NCBI GenBank assembly: GCA_017556595.1
Contig: JAFYML010000053.1
Span: forward strand, 1 to 7,763
Length of the DNA stretch: 7,763 bases
Direction: 5' to 3'
DNA from: Bacteroides sp.
GTDB taxonomy: Bacteria > Bacteroidota > Bacteroidia > Bacteroidales > Bacteroidaceae
A program made the translations under genes and the position numbers. How positions within the stretch are numbered: the first letter of the stretch is position 1; every line of letters begins with the position of its first letter. The notes under the pieces were generated by a model. It did no database searches. It worked only from the letters and a program-made list of their open reading frames with translations, and was not told where the DNA came from. Positions 1 to 6,756 of the stretch are shown here, piece by piece.

Positions 1-1
1 A

Positions 2-76
2 TCATACCGTTTCAACAGCGCCCAGAACAAATACAAGGGAACAGGTGCAGGCGAATCGGCTAAGAACAGAATGTAA
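2..76 (+). CDS. C-terminal end of a probable outer membrane beta-barrel (TonB-receptor-like) protein, partial
   Basis: The frame is open from the left edge and encodes 24 residues before TAA at 74-76, so only the end of the gene is present. The fragment starts SYRFNSAQNKYKGTGAG and ends AKNRM. A Tyr-Arg-Phe-Asn strand followed by a KYKGTGAG tail resembles, from memory, the C-termini of Bacteroidota outer membrane receptors that combine a carboxypeptidase-regulatory domain with a beta-barrel. The large protein at 2184-5144 may belong to the same broad class. Neither of the other two forward frames gives a plausible protein end here. The family assignment rests on a very short segment and is tentative; that a gene ends here is more secure. 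Confidence 0.5.
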   Translation, partial: SYRFNSAQNKYKGTGAGESAKNRM

Positions 77-99
77 CCATATTTAATTATCGAGACATT

Positions 100-186
100 A
101 TGAGAAAAACAATTCTCCTGTTTTTGATTATGCTATTGTACTTTATCGTCGGATGTTCTCCATTACTAAGTGTTTTACTCTTGTAA
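100..186 (+). CDS. Very small putative lipoprotein (28 residues)
   Basis: An ATG 23 bases after the preceding stop opens a 28-codon frame ending in TAA at 184-186. The product has a typical lipoprotein signal peptide: Arg2-Lys3, a hydrophobic run from residue 5 to 17, and the lipobox Ile16-Val17-Gly18-Cys19. Signal peptidase II would cut before Cys19 and leave a ten-residue lipidated peptide, CSPLLSVLLL. The short gap suggests cotranscription with the upstream outer membrane protein gene, and no separate promoter is evident. Small lipopeptides of this design exist, such as bacteriocin-release or entericidin types, but no family is recognised. It could instead be the remnant of a longer lipoprotein gene, although no continuation is visible in the other frames before the tRNA. 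The lipobox is clear; expression is unproven. Confidence 0.45.
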   Translation: MRKTILLFLIMLLYFIVGCSPLLSVLLL

Positions 187-214
187 CAAATGACCGAAAT
201 TGTAGTATTCATAA

Positions 215-275
215 ATTCTTGGTTTAATTCTCGGTTTAATTCCATCGATTAAACCACCGATTAAACCGCAAGAAT
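215..275. repeat. Large inverted repeat built from four GGTTTAAT/ATTAAACC octamers
   Basis: GGTTTAAT occurs at 221-228 and 233-240, and its reverse complement ATTAAACC at 248-255 and 260-267. Copies on each side are exactly 12 bases apart, and both pairs share one dyad centre at base 244. An outer arm ATTCTT (215-220) pairs with AAGAAT (270-275), with two unpaired bases at 268-269. The predicted fold has three paired blocks (6, 8 and 8 bp), a 4x4 internal loop and a 7-base apical loop. No T-run follows on either strand, so it is not a standard intrinsic terminator. It lies between the end of the rightward genes and the terminator of the leftward tRNA, and could be a 3'-end stabiliser, a protein-binding site or an interspersed repeat. 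Confidence 0.8.
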
Positions 276-291
276 CAGACAATATGCTTAT

Positions 292-332
292 AAAACAAAA
301 AGCATCGACAATCATCAGATTATCAATGCTTT
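292..332 (-). terminator. Intrinsic terminator of tRNA-Pro (and probably aroB)
   Basis: Read on the minus strand, the 15-base arm at 332-318 pairs fully with 313-299, allowing two U-G pairs, around a four-base loop at 317-314. It is followed directly by a T-rich run (TTTTTGTTTT, including the end of the stem). It starts 8 bases past the tRNA 3' end. No hairpin lies between aroB and the tRNA, so this probably ends both transcripts. Confidence 0.85.
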
Positions 333-340
333 CTTGTCAG

Positions 341-415
341 TCGGGATGACTGGATTCGAACCAGCGACCACACGCCCCCCAGACGCGTACTCTAACCGGG
401 CTGAGCTACATCCCG
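341..415 (-). tRNA. tRNA-Pro (anticodon GGG)
   Basis: Read on the minus strand, the 75 bases fold as a complete cloverleaf. The acceptor stem is CGGGATG/CATCCCG, the D arm GCTC/GAGT, and the anticodon stem CGCGT/GCGTG with loop CTGGGGG. The T arm is GCTGG-TTCGAAT-CCAGT, and the discriminator base is A. The anticodon GGG (plus-strand CCC at 378-380) reads the proline codons CCC and CCU. The first pair C1-G72 with A73 is a known identity feature of bacterial tRNA-Pro. The CCA end is not encoded: the gene continues CTG after the discriminator, so CCA must be added enzymatically. The tRNA has its own promoter and terminator. Confidence 0.97.
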
Positions 416-426
416 AATTGCGGCTG

Positions 427-457
427 CAAAGGTAGGGCTTTATTTTGAAACTGCAAA
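427..457 (-). promoter_or_regulatory. Bacteroidota-type promoter for tRNA-Pro
   Basis: On the minus strand, TTTG (457-454) is followed after exactly 19 bases by TACCTTTG (434-427). This fits the Bacteroidota primary-sigma pattern of a -33 TTTG and a -7 TAnnTTTG. The -7 box ends 12 bases before the mature tRNA 5' end, so transcription would start only a few bases upstream of the tRNA. This is the best-matching promoter in the window. Confidence 0.8.
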
Positions 458-474
458 TGTTTACAGTAGTTTTT

Positions 475-1539
475 TTATTCGCCCATGCATTCGCGGAAGA
501 AGTCGAAAACTTCGAATAGGGTATCTTTGTCGGCTGTTTGATTCAAACAAATGTCGCCTACATCTTTTAATAAGGTGAAGTTGATGATGCCGTTGCTATT
601 CTTCTTGTCGTGCGTCATCAGTTCGTATAGTTGCTCGTATTGCTTGCAAGTGAAGGAGAAGGTGCCGTAATTTTCTTTGATGAATTGGATAACGGTACGC
701 ATCAACTCTTTTGGGAAGCCTACTTTTATATATGATAGGTATAACTCGCACACCAATCCCCAAGCTACGGCATAACCATGAAGTATCGGTCGGCCTTCGG
801 CAAGGGCAAGACTTTCGAAGGCATGTCCGATGGTATGACCTAAATTCAATGCTTTGCGTATGCCATGTTCTTTGGGGTCTTCTTCCACGATACGCTCTTT
901 TACCGCTACCGAGCGGCCTACCATTTGCTTCAATGCTTCGTAGTCGATGTGTTCGATATCGAAGGCAAGCAGCTCGTCGAGGTGTGCTTGTGTACTGATG
1001 AGGCCATGCTTTAGCATCTCGGCAAAGCCAGAGAGGATGTTTTGTGTATCAAGTGTTTGCAAGAAGGCGGTTTCTATCAATACGCTGGATGCGGGCGAGA
1101 ATACGCCAATCTCGTTTTTCAATCCGTTGAAGTTGATGCCCGTCTTTCCGCCTACCGATGCATCGACCATGGAGAGTAGGGTAGTGGGGATGTTGATGTA
1201 GCTGATGCCACGTTTGAAGGTGCTTGCGGCAAAGCCTCCGAGGTCGGTCACCATGCCTCCACCAAGGTTGATGAGGAGCGAATGGCGGCTTGCACCTTGT
1301 TGGCTCAGAGCTTGCCATACGGACGCAAGTGTTTCGAGTGTCTTATTTACATCGTCGGCACCAATGATTATCTCTTGAAAAATTTCTCCTTTAGGGAAAA
1401 TATTTTTTTCGTTAAGGAGACAATGTTTATGGGTGTTTTCGTCGGTAAGGACGAAAAGACGGTCGTGTGGACACTTTTTAATGGCATTTATTAAATCATT
1501 GCCAAAATTTCTACAAAGAATTACCTCTTGTTTGCTCAT
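475..1539 (-). CDS. aroB: 3-dehydroquinate synthase
   Basis: This cytosolic enzyme converts DAHP to 3-dehydroquinate, the second step of the shikimate pathway to chorismate and the aromatic amino acids, using NAD and a divalent metal. The 354-residue length is normal for a single-domain AroB. The NAD-binding glycine turn NLGGGMVTDLGGF spans residues 91-103, and the substrate-site block with Ser128?-less core DASVGGKTGIN spans 126-136. The expected metal ligands are Glu174 (GFAEMLKHG), His235 (LNLGHTIGHAFE) and His254 (LHGYA). The ATG at 1539 lies 20 bases past a -7 box, and the product begins MSKQEV without an extra leader. It faces away from the membrane-protein gene at 1648 and is followed by tRNA-Pro with no intervening hairpin. 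All motifs look intact. Confidence 0.96.
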   Translation of the reverse strand: MSKQEVILCRNFGNDLINAIKKCPHDRLFVLTDENTHKHCLLNEKNIFPKGEIFQEIIIGADDVNKTLETLASVWQALSQQGASRHSLLINLGGGMVTDLGGFAASTFKRGISYINIPTTLLSMVDASVGGKTGINFNGLKNEIGVFSPASSVLIETAFLQTLDTQNILSGFAEMLKHGLISTQAHLDELLAFDIEHIDYEALKQMVGRSVAVKERIVEEDPKEHGIRKALNLGHTIGHAFESLALAEGRPILHGYAVAWGLVCELYLSYIKVGFPKELMRTVIQFIKENYGTFSFTCKQYEQLYELMTHDKKNSNGIINFTLLKDVGDICLNQTADKDTLFEVFDFFRECMGE

Positions 1540-1558
1540 TTGTATCAGTTTTGTGCTA

Positions 1559-1566
1559 CAAAGATA
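1559..1566 (-). promoter_or_regulatory. Probable -7 box of the aroB promoter
   Basis: The minus strand reads TATCTTTG, a perfect TAnnTTTG match, ending 20 bases before the aroB ATG. This is the same spacing as at the cls promoter. No TTTG is found 19-21 bases upstream, so the -33 element is missing or degenerate. The region where it should lie coincides with the -7 box of the opposing promoter at 1589-1596. Confidence 0.5.
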
Positions 1567-1588
1567 CGCGCTTTTGCTGAAAAAGTTG

Positions 1589-1596
1589 TATCTTTG
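1589..1596 (+). promoter_or_regulatory. Probable -7 box for the membrane-protein gene at 1648
   Basis: TATCTTTG matches TAnnTTTG and is followed by GCGCC, a context often seen at Bacteroidota start sites. Transcription would begin near 1603 and leave a leader of about 45 bases before the ATG at 1648. The nearest TTTTG (1572-1576) is only 12 bases upstream, too close for a standard -33 box. Confidence 0.5.
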
Positions 1597-1647
1597 CGCC
1601 CTAAAATTGCAAAAGTCGCTATTTAACGTTAAAATATTACATCGAAA

Positions 1648-2052
1648 ATGAAGCCATTATTACCAGTATTTGCTCGCTTTTTAGGTTATGCAGTTGTAGC
1701 GTTGGGGTTGTTTATGCCTTTCCTATTATATATGTTTGGAATGGTGAACGACCATAACTTGTTGCTATACAAGGAGTGCTCAAAGCTATTAATGATGTTT
1801 GGCGCATTGATGATTCTCTTTGCCGTTCGCAAGAATGAATGTGCCGAAATGCTGACTTTGCGTAACAAGGCTGCTCGTAATGCCATGTTCTTTACGGTAT
1901 TCTTCGTTTTCGGAAGCATGTTGTATCGTGTGTATCAAGGCAATCTGTTGAATGTAGATTCTTCCTCGTTCTTGACTTTCCTGCTCGTGAATGTGATTTG
2001 CCAGGAATATCTTATTAAAAAGGCCGCAATAGATGCCGTTTTTAAGCGATAA
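1648..2052 (+). CDS. Small integral membrane protein of unknown function (four predicted helices)
   Basis: The product has 134 residues and I do not recognise a named family. Four hydrophobic stretches are visible at roughly residues 9-33, 46-60, 79-95 and 106-123. They are separated by short charged segments such as RKNECAEMLTLRNKAAR (61-77), and the C-terminus is basic (KKAAIDAVFKR). By the positive-inside rule, the Lys/Arg-rich 61-77 segment and the C-terminus would be cytoplasmic. There is no cleavable signal peptide, so it probably sits in the inner membrane. The ATG follows an A-rich leader (ATCGAAAATG) typical of Bacteroidota, with no Shine-Dalgarno site. The gene diverges from aroB and shares its intergenic region, but that does not imply a role in aromatic synthesis. 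The coding assignment is solid; the function is unknown. Confidence 0.85.
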   Translation: MKPLLPVFARFLGYAVVALGLFMPFLLYMFGMVNDHNLLLYKECSKLLMMFGALMILFAVRKNECAEMLTLRNKAARNAMFFTVFFVFGSMLYRVYQGNLLNVDSSSFLTFLLVNVICQEYLIKKAAIDAVFKR

Positions 2053-2183
2053 TTTCGTTAAGGATTTCAATTTAACCACCATTAACATATTTTTTGCTGA
2101 AATTGATTAAACCTTTTATCGGTTTAAAAGTCAAAGGTTCAGTGTGAAAAAGATTTGTATTAATTAAATAAATATAGTTCTGA
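2053..2183. repeat. Intergenic stretch with a TTAAACC/GGTTTAA hairpin at 2106-2128
   Basis: ATTAAACC (2106-2113) and GGTTTAAA (2121-2128) form a 7-bp stem around a 7-base loop. A related TTTAACC lies at 2071-2077. No T-run follows, so it is a weak terminator candidate at best. The leader just before the ATG at 2184 is very A+T-rich, as expected for Bacteroidota translation starts. AAGATTTG (2150-2157) is one mismatch from a -7 box, but no TTTG lies at the right distance. I see no convincing promoter for the outer membrane protein gene. Confidence 0.6.
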
Positions 2184-5144
2184 ATGAAAAAAATGATGAT
2201 TGGAGCTGTGTTGCTCTTTATGACAAGCCTCTCCGTACTTGCTCAGACAAAGAACATTGAAGTGTCGGGTAGAGTAGTGGAAGCTGAGACAGGTGAACCT
2301 GCTATTCAAGCCAATGTTCAATTGTTATCATTGCCAGACAGTACTTATATCAATGGTGCTGCTACTTCTATCGATGGTACATTTACATTGCCAAAGGCTG
2401 CTGCAGGCAATTATGCATTGAAATTTACGTATGTAGGTTTTAAAACAAAGGTTTTGCCATTGAGACTCACTACCGACAAAACTGAAAGAAACATCGGTAC
2501 TATTACATTGGAAACCGATGCCGTTATGTTGGAAGAAGCCGTGGTAACTGCTGAAGCTGCTAAGGTACAAGTATCGGAAGATACATTGTTGTATAACGCA
2601 GCTGCTTATCGTACACCACAAGGTGCTATGCTCCAAGAATTGGTGCGTAAGCTCCCAGGTGCAGAAGTTGATGATAATGGTAACGTTAAAATCAATGGTA
2701 AGCAAGTAAGCAAGCTCTTGGTAGGCGGTAAGGAATTCTTTGGTGGCGACGTAGCTACAGGTTTGCAGAACTTGCCTGTAGAAATGATTGACCGCATCAA
2801 GACTTACGACCGACAATCGGATGCTGCTCGCTTGACCGGTATCGATGATGGTGAAGAAGAAACTGTACTCGACCTTACCGTGAAGAAGGGTATGAACCAA
2901 GGTTGGTTGATGAACTTCGACGTAGCCGGTGGTACTGAAGATCGCTACTCTGGTCGTGCAACCGTAAACTACTATAACGACAATGCTCAAGCAACCATTA
3001 TTGGTAACATGAACAATACTGGTAGCATGGGATTCAGTGGCGGTGGTGCCCAATTCATGAGAAACCAAGGTGAGAGAATTAACAAAATGGCTGGTGGTAG
3101 CTTCGCTTACGAAAACGATGACCTTGAAATCGGTGGTAGCGTTCGTTACAACAACAATAAGAACAACTCAATCTCTACTGGTTATGCTGAAAACTTCTTG
3201 CCTAATGGTACTTCTTCGTTCAGCAACTCGAACAGATATAACCTTAGCAAGAACCAAAACTTCAACTTCAATATGCGTTTGGAATGGAGAATAGACACAT
3301 TGACTACCCTCCTTTTCCGTCCAAGCCTTACATTGGGTGATAGCTATAGCACATCGAATAGCGAATCGGGTACATTCAATAAGGATCCATATGCCGAAAT
3401 CTACGGCGGTTTGAATCCAAATCACTACCTCAGCTTGAGCGATATGACAACAGACCCATTCGAGGATATTCGTGTGAACTTGTCTAACAACGGTTCGTTG
3501 AGCGATGGTAACAACCTCTCTGGTAGCGCAAGCTTGCAATTGAGCCGTCGTTTGAGCAGCAATGGCCGTAACATCATGTTGGAATTGCGTACCAACTTTG
3601 GTGATAGCGAAAGCGATTCTTACTCGGAAAATACTACCAAGTATTTCGCTACAAATACTCTTCAACCACTTCATCGTTACAACACTTCTCCATCAGACAA
3701 TCAATCGTATAGCGCACGTTTGCAATATAGCGAACCTATCGCAAAACAAACATACTTGCAATTCAGCTATCAATTCCAATATAGCCAAAACAAGAGTGAT
3801 AGAAGAGCGTATGCAATCTACGAACTCGATCCAAATTGGCAAATTGGCAAACCATTGCCTGATGGCTTGTTGGGTGATAACGACAACAATGGCGTGGACG
3901 ATTATTTGGATGCTAAGGCAAGCCAATATGCAGAATACAAGAACTACAACCATAACGCACAACTTACTTTGCGCTTCAACCGCGACGACTGGCAACTTAG
4001 TGCCGGTGTGAGCTTCCAACCACAACGCTCGGTAATGTCATACGAAAAGAATGGCTATGCTATCGATACTGCACGTACAGTATTCAACTTTAGCCCGAAT
4101 GTTGACTACCGCTATCGCTTCTCTAAGCAAAGCCAAATCCGTTTCCAATATCGTGGTCGTAGCTCACAACCAAGCATGACAAACTTGTTGCCTATTACCG
4201 ACGACTCAAATCCATTGAACATCACTATGGGTAACCCAGGTTTGAAACCATCGTTCAATCACAACATCTCGTTGTTCTATAACGACTACAACGTAGAAAA
4301 GCAACGTGGTATCACTACAAACCTTAGCTACTCTACTACATTGAATAGCATCAGCAGTATCCGTCGTTACAACGATGAAACCGGTGCTTGGACTGTACAA
4401 CCAGAAAACATTAATGGTAACTGGAATGCTAACGCAATGTTTGGTTTCAACACTGCATTGCCAAACCAAAAGTACACTATCAACACCTTTACTACTGCAA
4501 TGTATACAAACAATGTTGGTTACTTGACTATCGGTCAAAACGACCCATTGAAGAATACTACTACCAACTTGATGTTGATGGAAAACATCATGGGTGCTTA
4601 TCGTAACGACTGGTTGGAAATTGGTATCCAAGGTGGTATTAACTACAACATTGAAAAGGATAAGTTGAACCCAATCAATAACCAAGAAACTTACACCTAC
4701 AACTATGGTGGTAACGTACAAGTGATGACTGATTGGAACATGGTTATCAACTCTAACATTACTAACCAAGCTCGTCGCGGTTATGCTGACCAATCAATGA
4801 ACAAAGACGAATTGATTTGGAACGTTCAAGTAGCTCAAACTTTCTTGAAGGGTGCAGCAACACTTAGCTTGGAATTCTATGACATCTTGAAACAACAAAG
4901 CAACATCACACGTTCGTTGACATCAAGCGGCCGTTCAGTATACCAATACAACGGTATCAATAGCTATGCAATGTTGCACTTCACCTATCGCTTGAATATC
5001 TTCGGTAGCAAGTCTGCTCGCGATCAGATGCAAAACCAATTCATGATGGGTGGCTTCGGCGGTGGCATGATGCCTCCTATGGGCGGCGGCGGTGGCCGTG
5101 GCGGTCGTATGGGTGGTGGCGGCTTCGGTGGTGGCCGTCGTTAA
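2184..5144 (+). CDS. Outer membrane beta-barrel protein with carboxypeptidase-regulatory domain and Gly-rich tail
   Basis: The 986-residue product starts with a Sec signal peptide (MKKMMIGAVLLFMTSLSVLAQ, cut after about residue 20). A CarboxypepD_reg-like beta-sandwich follows at about 25-120 (VSGRVVEAETGEPA, FTYVGF). Next is a plug-like segment at about 125-236 with LQELVRKLPG, INGKQVSKLLVGGKEFFGGD and DLTVKKG. A long Asn/Ser/Tyr/Gln-rich barrel then runs to Phe940 (HFTYRLNIF). This order fits the OMP_b-brl_3 family of TonB-receptor-like proteins. The substrate is unknown, and no SusD-type partner is adjacent. Residues 565-576 form a calcium-loop motif, DNDNNGVDDYLD. The last 33 residues (954-986) are 19 Gly, 6 Met, 4 Arg, 2 Pro and 2 Phe. 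Codon use is strongly biased (TTG, CAA, AAC, GGT, CGT), suggesting high expression. A strong terminator follows. Confidence 0.92.
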   Translation: MKKMMIGAVLLFMTSLSVLAQTKNIEVSGRVVEAETGEPAIQANVQLLSLPDSTYINGAATSIDGTFTLPKAAAGNYALKFTYVGFKTKVLPLRLTTDKTERNIGTITLETDAVMLEEAVVTAEAAKVQVSEDTLLYNAAAYRTPQGAMLQELVRKLPGAEVDDNGNVKINGKQVSKLLVGGKEFFGGDVATGLQNLPVEMIDRIKTYDRQSDAARLTGIDDGEEETVLDLTVKKGMNQGWLMNFDVAGGTEDRYSGRATVNYYNDNAQATIIGNMNNTGSMGFSGGGAQFMRNQGERINKMAGGSFAYENDDLEIGGSVRYNNNKNNSISTGYAENFLPNGTSSFSNSNRYNLSKNQNFNFNMRLEWRIDTLTTLLFRPSLTLGDSYSTSNSESGTFNKDPYAEIYGGLNPNHYLSLSDMTTDPFEDIRVNLSNNGSLSDGNNLSGSASLQLSRRLSSNGRNIMLELRTNFGDSESDSYSENTTKYFATNTLQPLHRYNTSPSDNQSYSARLQYSEPIAKQTYLQFSYQFQYSQNKSDRRAYAIYELDPNWQIGKPLPDGLLGDNDNNGVDDYLDAKASQYAEYKNYNHNAQLTLRFNRDDWQLSAGVSFQPQRSVMSYEKNGYAIDTARTVFNFSPNVDYRYRFSKQSQIRFQYRGRSSQPSMTNLLPITDDSNPLNITMGNPGLKPSFNHNISLFYNDYNVEKQRGITTNLSYSTTLNSISSIRRYNDETGAWTVQPENINGNWNANAMFGFNTALPNQKYTINTFTTAMYTNNVGYLTIGQNDPLKNTTTNLMLMENIMGAYRNDWLEIGIQGGINYNIEKDKLNPINNQETYTYNYGGNVQVMTDWNMVINSNITNQARRGYADQSMNKDELIWNVQVAQTFLKGAATLSLEFYDILKQQSNITRSLTSSGRSVYQYNGINSYAMLHFTYRLNIFGSKSARDQMQNQFMMGGFGGGMMPPMGGGGGRGGRMGGGGFGGGRR

Positions 5145-5179
5145 ACAACGCCAATAGTTAATACATAATAGATAATTAC

Positions 5180-5237
5180 ATTAAACCTTCTTGCTGATTA
5201 GGTTAAACCTTCTTAGCAAGAAGGTTTAATCTTTTTG
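5180..5237 (+). terminator. Double-hairpin intrinsic terminator after the outer membrane protein gene
   Basis: A perfect 16-bp inverted repeat joins 5180-5195 to 5215-5230 (AGCAAGAAGGTTTAAT), with a 19-base loop, and is followed by CTTTTTG (5231-5237). The loop holds a second copy of the left arm. Bases 5200-5214 can pair with 5218-5232 over 15 positions, including one G-U, around a three-base AGC loop that ends at the T-run. The two hairpins share the 3' arm and are mutually exclusive. Either would terminate transcription 36-90 bases past the stop at 5144. Confidence 0.85.
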
Positions 5238-5243
5238 TCCTTT

Positions 5244-5258
5244 AGGTTAAACCTTTTT
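5244..5258. repeat. Extra AGGTTAAACCTT copy upstream of the cls promoter
   Basis: AGGTTAAACCTTTTT repeats the sequence at 5200-5211 (AGGTTAAACCTT) and is itself nearly palindromic. It can also pair with 5218-5229, giving a third possible hairpin that shares the same arm. It ends 12 bases before the possible -33 element of the cardiolipin synthase promoter, so it could be a regulator-binding site or simply a repeat unit. Confidence 0.6.
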
Positions 5259-5270
5259 GTATCCATGTTT

Positions 5271-5319: not shown

Positions 5320-6756
5320 ATGGACTGGGCTACTCTTTTTAATCAAGTTCTTGGCATTGTATTTGAATTGCTATTGTCGGTAACAATCATCGGGGCCATT
5401 ATCGTTATTATCTTGGATAATCGAAACCCCGTAAAGAGTCTTGCGTGGATATTGGTACTGCTCTTTTTACCTTTGGTGGGGCTGTTGCTCTACTATTTCT
5501 TTGGTCGCGATACTCGTCGCATCCGTATCATTAACAAGAAAACATATGGTCGTATGTTGCAGAAACCTATGGCTGAGTATCTTGCTCAACAAGAGACATT
5601 TCTGCCGCATAATTATGGACGATTGATTTCGCTTTTCCGTAACAATTCAAAAGCGCTTCCTTTCGATGGTAATTCAGTAGAAATCTATACTACAGGTAAA
5701 GAGATGCTGAATTCGTTGTTGTTTCAACTTGAACGTGCAACAAAGCACATCCATTTGCAATTCTATATTTTTGAGGATGATCCTGTAGGCCGACAAGTTA
5801 AAGAGGTGTTAATGCGTAAAGCAAAGCAAGGGGTTGAGGTGCGTGTTTTGTACGATGATGTGGGATGTTTGCATGTGCCAAGTGATTTCTTTCAAGAGAT
5901 GCGCGATGCTGGTGTGCAGGTAAGTGAATTCCTTGAGGTTCGTTTCCCGAGATTTGCAAGTGGCGTGAATTACCGCAATCATCGAAAAATTGTAGTTATT
6001 GATGGCTGTGTAGGATTTATTGGTGGCATGAATTTAGCCAATCGCTATGTGAATGGTGTGGAATGGGGTGTATGGCGCGACACGCACATCATGATGCAAG
6101 GGAAAGCGATACATGGGCTTCAAACAATTTTCTTGCTCGATTGGTACTTTGTGAATGGTACGTTGCTAACTGACGAGCGTTATTTCCCTACGCAAGAAGT
6201 TTGTGGTGAATCCTTGATTCAAGTTGTAGCGAGCTCACCGATAGGACCATGGAGAGAGATTATGCAGGGTTTGACAATGTCTATTGCTATTGCAAAGAAA
6301 TATTTCTATCTTCAAACGCCCTATTTTATGCCTACCGAATCTGTGAGAATGGCACTGACTACTGCTGCAGTTTCGGGTGTGGATGTAAGACTGATGATAC
6401 CTCGTAAGGCTGATAGCTGGTTGGTGAGCAAAGCATCGTACTCTTATATCAGAGATATGCTTCAGGCTGGTGTGAAGGTCTATTTCTACGAGAAAGGTTT
6501 CCTACATTCAAAGTTATGGGTTAGTGATGATATGCTATCCTCTGTTGGTTCTACGAATATAGATTTTCGTAGTTTTGAGCATAACTTTGAAGCAAATGCA
6601 TTTATCTATGATGAGGAAACGGCAATAAAAATGTGCGAAATATTCCTTGCCGATCAACGTGAGTGTACGCAAATTACATTGAAAGCATGGAAGAAACGCC
6701 CATGGTATAACAAACTTAGCGAAAGTGTGGTTCGCTTACTTTCTCCGTTGTTATAG
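5320..6756 (+). CDS. cls: Cardiolipin synthase, phospholipase D family
   Basis: This membrane enzyme joins two phosphatidylglycerol molecules into cardiolipin and glycerol. From the ATG at 5320 the product has 478 residues, close to the roughly 480 usual for ClsA-type enzymes. Two N-terminal membrane helices lie at about residues 9-33 and 40-62. Both catalytic HxKxxxxD motifs are intact: His221-Lys223-Asp228 (NHRKIVVIDG), followed by GFIGGMNLANRY, and His396-Lys398-Asp403 (LHSKLWVSDD), followed by SSVGSTNIDFRSFEHNFE. The frame extends upstream to a TTG at 5257, but those 21 codons contain the promoter and part of a repeat, so the ATG is preferred. The 3' end overlaps convergent rsmD by six bases, with no terminator between them. 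Confidence 0.95.
   Translation: MDWATLFNQVLGIVFELLLSVTIIGAIIVIILDNRNPVKSLAWILVLLFLPLVGLLLYYFFGRDTRRIRIINKKTYGRMLQKPMAEYLAQQETFLPHNYGRLISLFRNNSKALPFDGNSVEIYTTGKEMLNSLLFQLERATKHIHLQFYIFEDDPVGRQVKEVLMRKAKQGVEVRVLYDDVGCLHVPSDFFQEMRDAGVQVSEFLEVRFPRFASGVNYRNHRKIVVIDGCVGFIGGMNLANRYVNGVEWGVWRDTHIMMQGKAIHGLQTIFLLDWYFVNGTLLTDERYFPTQEVCGESLIQVVASSPIGPWREIMQGLTMSIAIAKKYFYLQTPYFMPTESVRMALTTAAVSGVDVRLMIPRKADSWLVSKASYSYIRDMLQAGVKVYFYEKGFLHSKLWVSDDMLSSVGSTNIDFRSFEHNFEANAFIYDEETAIKMCEIFLADQRECTQITLKAWKKRPWYNKLSESVVRLLSPLL

Follow-up and report, generated by a model that had tools for sequence, protein, structure and literature searches.

A four-unit palindromic element on a 22-bp pitch in Bacteroides, predicted to act as a terminator, and its relation to a wider set of intergenic arrays

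Among the described bacterial intergenic repeats, repetitive extragenic palindrome (REP) doublets forming hairpins (REPINs) are short palindromes that are dispersed between genes and paired into hairpins, with several families per genome, as set out in the accessible part of PMC3116915. Within the order Bacteroidales, the accessible part of PMC4596501 describes BrickBuilt, a miniature inverted-repeat transposable element (MITE) of Porphyromonas gingivalis, which is intergenic, has an internal period of 23 nt and consists of 1 to 22.8 direct repeats with a leader, a tail and terminal inverted repeats. Here we describe an 89-bp intergenic element of Bacteroides sp. that consists of four palindromic units on a pitch of 22 bp. 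The stretch analysed (the window) is 7,763 nucleotides long and corresponds to contig C136 (JAFYML010000053.1) of the draft genome G000 (1.72 Mb, 392 contigs, 70.6% complete). An earlier note on the window had singled out the heptamer TTAAACC/GGTTTAA, which lies there in three intergenic groups, and had treated it as their common unit. This is unsupported, as the groups are three different things. The exceptional part is a 22-bp-phased array holding four of the ten heptamers. It is one of a larger group of intergenic arrays in Bacteroides that have this pitch in common and are unrelated in sequence.

The 89-bp element, its copies and its predicted function

In the window, the heptamers of the element start at 5181, 5203, 5223 (reverse) and 5247, and the self-identity of the element at a shift of 22 is 41/60. 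Clusters on four further contigs of G000 (C17, C75, C215 and, shorter, C78) align with the window group over up to 89 bp. A sequence-only model was made from the five G000 copies and an orthologue, L076, the genome of which carries the handles G147 and G182, equated through their identical places and scores. At E 0.001 or better the model matched 12 of 158 genomes of the genus, with five places in G000, nine in G182 and twelve in G132, a third species; six of these (five in G000, one in G182) are matched by construction, as parts of the model, while G132 gave the model no sequence and its best match (E 2e-24) is thus independent of it. Beyond the cut-off there were weaker single matches, among them C224 of G000 (E 0.07) and C52 of G182 (E 0.006). 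Strong copies were matched on the opposite strand too, as palindromes should be, and within the window the model matched only inside 5160-5260. Grouped by flanking proteins common on at least one side, the 26 copies fall into 16 loci, of which 8 are occupied in at least two of the three genomes and 2 in all three. All four heptamers of the window copy are identical in L076 and the linkers differ. The idea of a genome-wide interspersed element, raised in the earlier note for the heptamer as such, fits the dispersed 5181-5253 group and does not fit the groups at 221 and 2107.

An alignment of the 15 best-preserved copies, which omits the eleven shorter or more divergent ones, gave the four-unit consensus ACATTAAACCTT-N8-TTAGGTTAAACCTTTTGGGCAAGAAGGTTTAATGTTTT-N4-CTTTAGGTTTAACCTTTT. 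In it, unit 1 and unit 3 can form a helix in which 94.6% of cells are paired and five pairs are changed on both sides, and versions of the helix slid along the alignment pair at 61% or less. Among 500 shuffles, none reached the observed share of paired cells or the covariation score; at least as many pairs changed on both sides were seen in 4, cells changed on both sides in 1 and further pair types in 14. There are 14 G.U-type cells against 4 A.C cells, a bias in favour of a fold formed by the plus-strand RNA. Four or five T in a row follow within 7 bases of the stem in all 15 rows. The window copy folds with -30.7 kcal/mol (z -6.9) on the plus strand and with -28.3 kcal/mol (z -6.4), without a T-run, on the other; positions 5200-5232 were also listed as terminator-like.

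The element follows the gene of an outer-membrane protein at a distance of 30 bp, and 57 bp separate it from the phospholipase-D-type gene downstream (Table 1). A preference for convergent or 3' ends, for which the earlier note had proposed a check, is evident in this family: the 15 loci with both neighbours readable comprise 8 convergent, 5 same-sense, 2 reverse-sense and 0 divergent arrangements, as compared to 22 convergent and 40 divergent among 151 gaps of at least 60 bp in G132 (p 0.0012 and 0.023, respectively; open reading frame (ORF) cut-offs of 60 aa for the elements and 80 aa for the background). The C215 copy of G000 is divergent by ORF calling and its G182 orthologue same-sense, the latter being counted. 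Of the three groups, only this one fits the suggestion of an mRNA 3'-end element, by way of its hairpin at gene 3' ends.

From these sequence features the element family is predicted to be likely to end transcripts of neighbouring genes, and with moderate confidence we predict the window copy to be an intrinsic terminator, placed at the 3' end of the gene for the outer-membrane protein. The stem of units 1 and 3 would form in the nascent RNA behind RNA polymerase, the U-run would then release the transcript, and the downstream phospholipase-type gene would stay under its own promoter. Since the units are palindromic the other strand can fold alike, so that a single element could act on both transcripts where genes converge. 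Several observations weigh against termination. The helix tested was derived from the same alignment and some of the rows are orthologues, hence covariation is support and not proof. When the 15 aligned copies are folded singly, together with their flanks, only 10 form the stem of units 1 and 3, those of C75, C215, G182 C37, G182 C50 and G132 C13 folding otherwise. The T-run is short (4-5), and other families of the class are without a 3'-end bias. REP-like repeats too are found at gene ends, and gene-end position alone is therefore no proof of termination.

A rival explanation is a selfish REP-like or BIME-like (bacterial interspersed mosaic element) repeat, non-autonomous and with no function in itself, which some transposase spreads in trans and which is tolerated at gene ends. 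The element is indeed multi-copy, intergenic and hairpin-forming, in related arrays whole units are lost and families replaced at a single gap, and tolerated insertion would likewise give a 3'-end bias. Nevertheless we regard this explanation as unlikely, since half of the 16 loci are common to several species and the stems covary, which suggests upkeep. Moreover, the Y1 domain (PF01797) of the REP-associated tyrosine transposases (RAYTs) is absent from 12 of the 13 clear array carriers searched, among them G000 (71% complete). One such domain was found in G012, the remaining clear carrier, and the domain also occurs in G069 and G111, which have weak R1 matches; G132 and G182 stood outside this search. 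A RAYT or Y1 protein as mobiliser is thus unsupported.

The strong stem and its place behind stop codons would also suit an mRNA 3'-end barrier, where longer transcripts are trimmed back to a hairpin that shields them from exonucleases. The T-run kept in every row is needless for a pure barrier, and we consider this role improbable. Sites for an abundant DNA-binding protein, one of the suggestions of the earlier note, set at intervals of two helical turns would account for palindromic units on a pitch fixed at 22 bp, yet unrelated sequences on the same pitch are ill-suited to one sequence-specific protein and the paired changes suit a folded strand; to this explanation we give very little credence. 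Intrinsic termination is the reading that we carry forward for the window copy.

Arrays of the same pitch in other Bacteroides

A motif-free scan scored the self-identity of intergenic gaps at shifts of 12 to 40 bp with a threshold of at least 36/60. At shift 22, the gaps passing were 16 of 278 in G021 (800 kb, in stretches chosen to include known arrays), 15 of 138 in G132 (400 kb, in stretches of contigs that bear known elements) and, in contigs of G000 chosen for the heptamer, 10 of 106. At any other shift, at most 2 gaps passed in G021 and G000; G132 had 7 at shift 21, 5 at 14 and 4 at 16. Five rounds of mononucleotide shuffles yielded a single gap each at shifts 22 and 21 in G000 and none elsewhere, and dinucleotide shuffles a mean of 0.0 gaps at shift 22. 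Outside Bacteroides, small samples gave no gap at this shift in E. coli K-12 (0/74) or in four Bacteroidales of other families (0/99); other genera of the same family lay outside the sample, and four contigs of a fifth genome were too short for the scan. Hence, among the intergenic repeats of three Bacteroides genomes, 22 bp is the commonest pitch, and many unrelated families share it. As 22 is not a multiple of three, coding is no explanation.

The ten gaps of G000 comprise two elements of its own type and eight other sequences, and families found at shift 22 include the GATAGTGACGGTATC, GAAACAAAGTGTTTC, TGCCATAACTATGGCA and TTTCCCTTAAGGGAAA types. A few of the arrays resemble direct rather than palindromic repeats. 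Weaker matches of the element model in G011, G025, G089, G078, G164 and G174 are likewise other sequences of similar pitch. Large Bacteroides genomes carry GTTSSTTTTAAASSAAC arrays (GTTCC type) on the same pitch; 12 of 99 genomes contain the strict pattern, and none contains its reversed control. The 37 distinct GTTCC-type arrays have four units at most; 11 lie between same-sense, 9 between convergent, 9 between divergent and 7 between reverse-sense neighbours, and 1 inside a called ORF. With these divergent cases and with a GATAGTGACG array in a divergent gap, termination is unsupported as a reading for the whole class. Our statement on four units rests on alignments and array counts; the shift scan is uninformative on unit number, because the length of its scan window sets a minimum. 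Among viral contigs, one exact match of the GTTSSTTTTAAASSAAC type was seen (L156 244-270, IMGVR_UViG_3300049617_000202).

Orthologous gaps give a view of array turnover. One gene gap holds a GATAGTGACG array in G021, G012, G083 and G001 and shortened remnants in G115 and G106, and in G110 (L301 ~2560-2670, against L124 9901 in G021) it holds an array of the unrelated CGTCTGACA family. At one operon gap, GTTCC arrays have four, two or one unit depending on the species (flanks compared by eye). From the remnants, the differences in unit number and the swap of families, units seem to be lost whole and families to be exchanged. A clean insertion with an empty site was not found at one G021 gap across 16 genomes; G115 was rejected as an empty site, since the break removes most of the array together with DNA beyond it and thus represents a deletion. 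Tentatively, we put forward a Bacteroides class defined by geometry and not by sequence: sets of some four palindromes spaced at exactly 22 bp, in many unrelated families that are sometimes swapped at one gap, might be spread or rebuilt by a machinery that recognises structure and is not of the RAYT kind, and some families may now serve as terminators. As a whole, we hold this proposal to be possible rather than probable.

The heptamer and the other two groups

An exact search of both strands of the window returned ten heptamers, at 221, 233, 249, 261, 2107, 2121, 5181, 5203, 5223 and 5247. The earlier count of ten is thereby borne out, as are eight of its positions; the two given as 248 and 260 were one base low. 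Its estimate of about one chance copy agrees with dinucleotide shuffles of the window (mean 1.34, maximum 7), in 200 of which ten copies were never reached. All ten lie outside long ORFs, as claimed, and this confinement to gaps does not extend to the genome. The draft G000 holds 114 copies (60 + 54) versus 235 (104 + 131) of the reversed control, and 43 of 69 copies fall within called ORFs on the 41 G000 contigs picked for carrying the site. The comparison of gaps with coding DNA proposed earlier was made on 400 kb of the relative G132 not picked for the motif, with 30 heptamers (12 intergenic, 18 in ORFs). There was an excess in gaps (0.305 per kb versus 0.050 per kb in ORFs), although by gap density the heptamer ranks only 21 of 210 among heptamers of the same composition. 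It is therefore denser per kb between genes, yet neither confined there nor exceptional. Given its number below the reversed control, its frequent location inside ORFs and this rank, we reject it as a genome-wide motif and do not regard it as the functional unit. The most gap-enriched heptamers of that composition in G132 are of the CTAAATCACTAACTCA type, short intergenic repeats of which occur at L232 175, 1765 and 3285, L239 7818 and L244 9413.

The group at 2107-2132 is likely a promoter element, judged by its pattern and position. TAAACCTTTT-N12-GTC lies 52 bp upstream of where the outer-membrane-protein gene starts, with GGTTTAA at 2121 within the spacer, and the site is identical in L076. 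G000 contains four matches (reversed control 0), each of them 27-69 bp ahead of a start codon that lies on its own strand, and one overlaps the last part of the ORF before it; across the genus the pattern was matched in 87 of 119 genomes and the reversed control in 28 (by eye). Perhaps it serves an extracytoplasmic function (ECF) sigma factor. Conservation was not found for the group at 221-267, a stretch unmatched by eye in L076, the closest relative. Its heptamers are spaced 12, 16 and 12, and positions 215-275 fold with -19.9 kcal/mol (z -4.9 on the plus and -3.6 on the minus strand). With neither a T-run nor a match to the element model, this group is a local hairpin unrelated to the 89-bp element.

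Table 1. Features of the window and the evidence on which each is placed
Feature	Position	Strand	Basis
Four-unit, 22-bp-phased palindromic dispersed element	5174..5262	+	alignment with four other G000 places and the L076 orthologue; model matches
Predicted stem between units 1 (5180-5197) and 3 (5213-5230), with unit 2 as part of its loop	5180..5230	+	RNA fold, covariation
T-run one base past the stem, predicted terminator U-tract	5232..5236	+	sequence
Outer membrane beta-barrel protein gene, 3' end facing the element	2184..5144	+	PF14905, PF13715
Phospholipase-D-type (cardiolipin-synthase-like) gene downstream of the element	5320..6756	+	PF13091, PF00614, PF13396
Promoter-like TAAACCTTTT-N12-GTC (from 2108)	2107..2132	+	pattern matches, position before start codon
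Local hairpin between a small ORF and tRNA-Pro	215..275	.	RNA fold
tRNA-Pro	340-415		Rfam/covariance-model match

The three named relatives of the outer-membrane protein are from Bacteroides or Bacteroidaceae metagenome-assembled genomes (MAGs), the closest being L076 with 91% identity. Just downstream of tRNA-Pro, a terminator-like stem-loop on the minus strand (297-334) is conserved in L076. When window positions 1-280 and L076 1-150 were compared by eye, the tRNA and its presumed terminator were alike and the flank beyond differed, perhaps reflecting a rearrangement next to the tRNA.

Comparison with known systems

Above the gathering scores, Rfam matches were limited to tRNA-Pro in the window and two tRNAs in 140 kb of G021, with none in eight array loci; microRNA families listed for the window and the array loci were far below their cut-offs and were rejected. 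Among the papers listed by a literature search made largely outside subscription journals, none describes palindrome arrays of this 22-bp phasing for Bacteroides. The genus goes unmentioned in PMC2267715 and PMC1590033, and the accessible parts of RepRanger (PMC12306157) and of the B. thetaiotaomicron transcriptome papers PMC7366714 and PMC10994844 hold nothing on such arrays. If our reading is true, a seven-letter motif becomes part of a structural class that is abundant in a major gut genus. Neither a single binding protein nor a single transposon easily accounts for a pitch that stays at 22 bp while the sequences are unrelated, and a mechanism is needed for it; orthologous gaps let the gain, loss and replacement of elements be traced. 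For Bacteroides genetics, the elements would be candidate, possibly bidirectional, terminators.

Like intrinsic (Rho-independent) terminators, the element lies at gene 3' ends and has a stable stem with a T-run right behind it. Unlike the usual ones, it is a multi-copy repeat with an internal 22-bp periodicity, a palindromic unit in the loop and a short T-run. With BrickBuilt, as far as the accessible text goes, it has in common that it is an intergenic repeat of close period in a Bacteroidales host; it differs in its palindromic units at 22 bp, of which at most four were counted, and in an alignment that has no leader or tail. The nearest known kind are the REPINs. As in REP, BIME and REPIN sequences, short dispersed intergenic palindromes are here paired into hairpins, with several families per genome; unlike in REP and REPIN sequences, four units stand on an exact 22-bp pitch, and many unrelated families keep to that one pitch.

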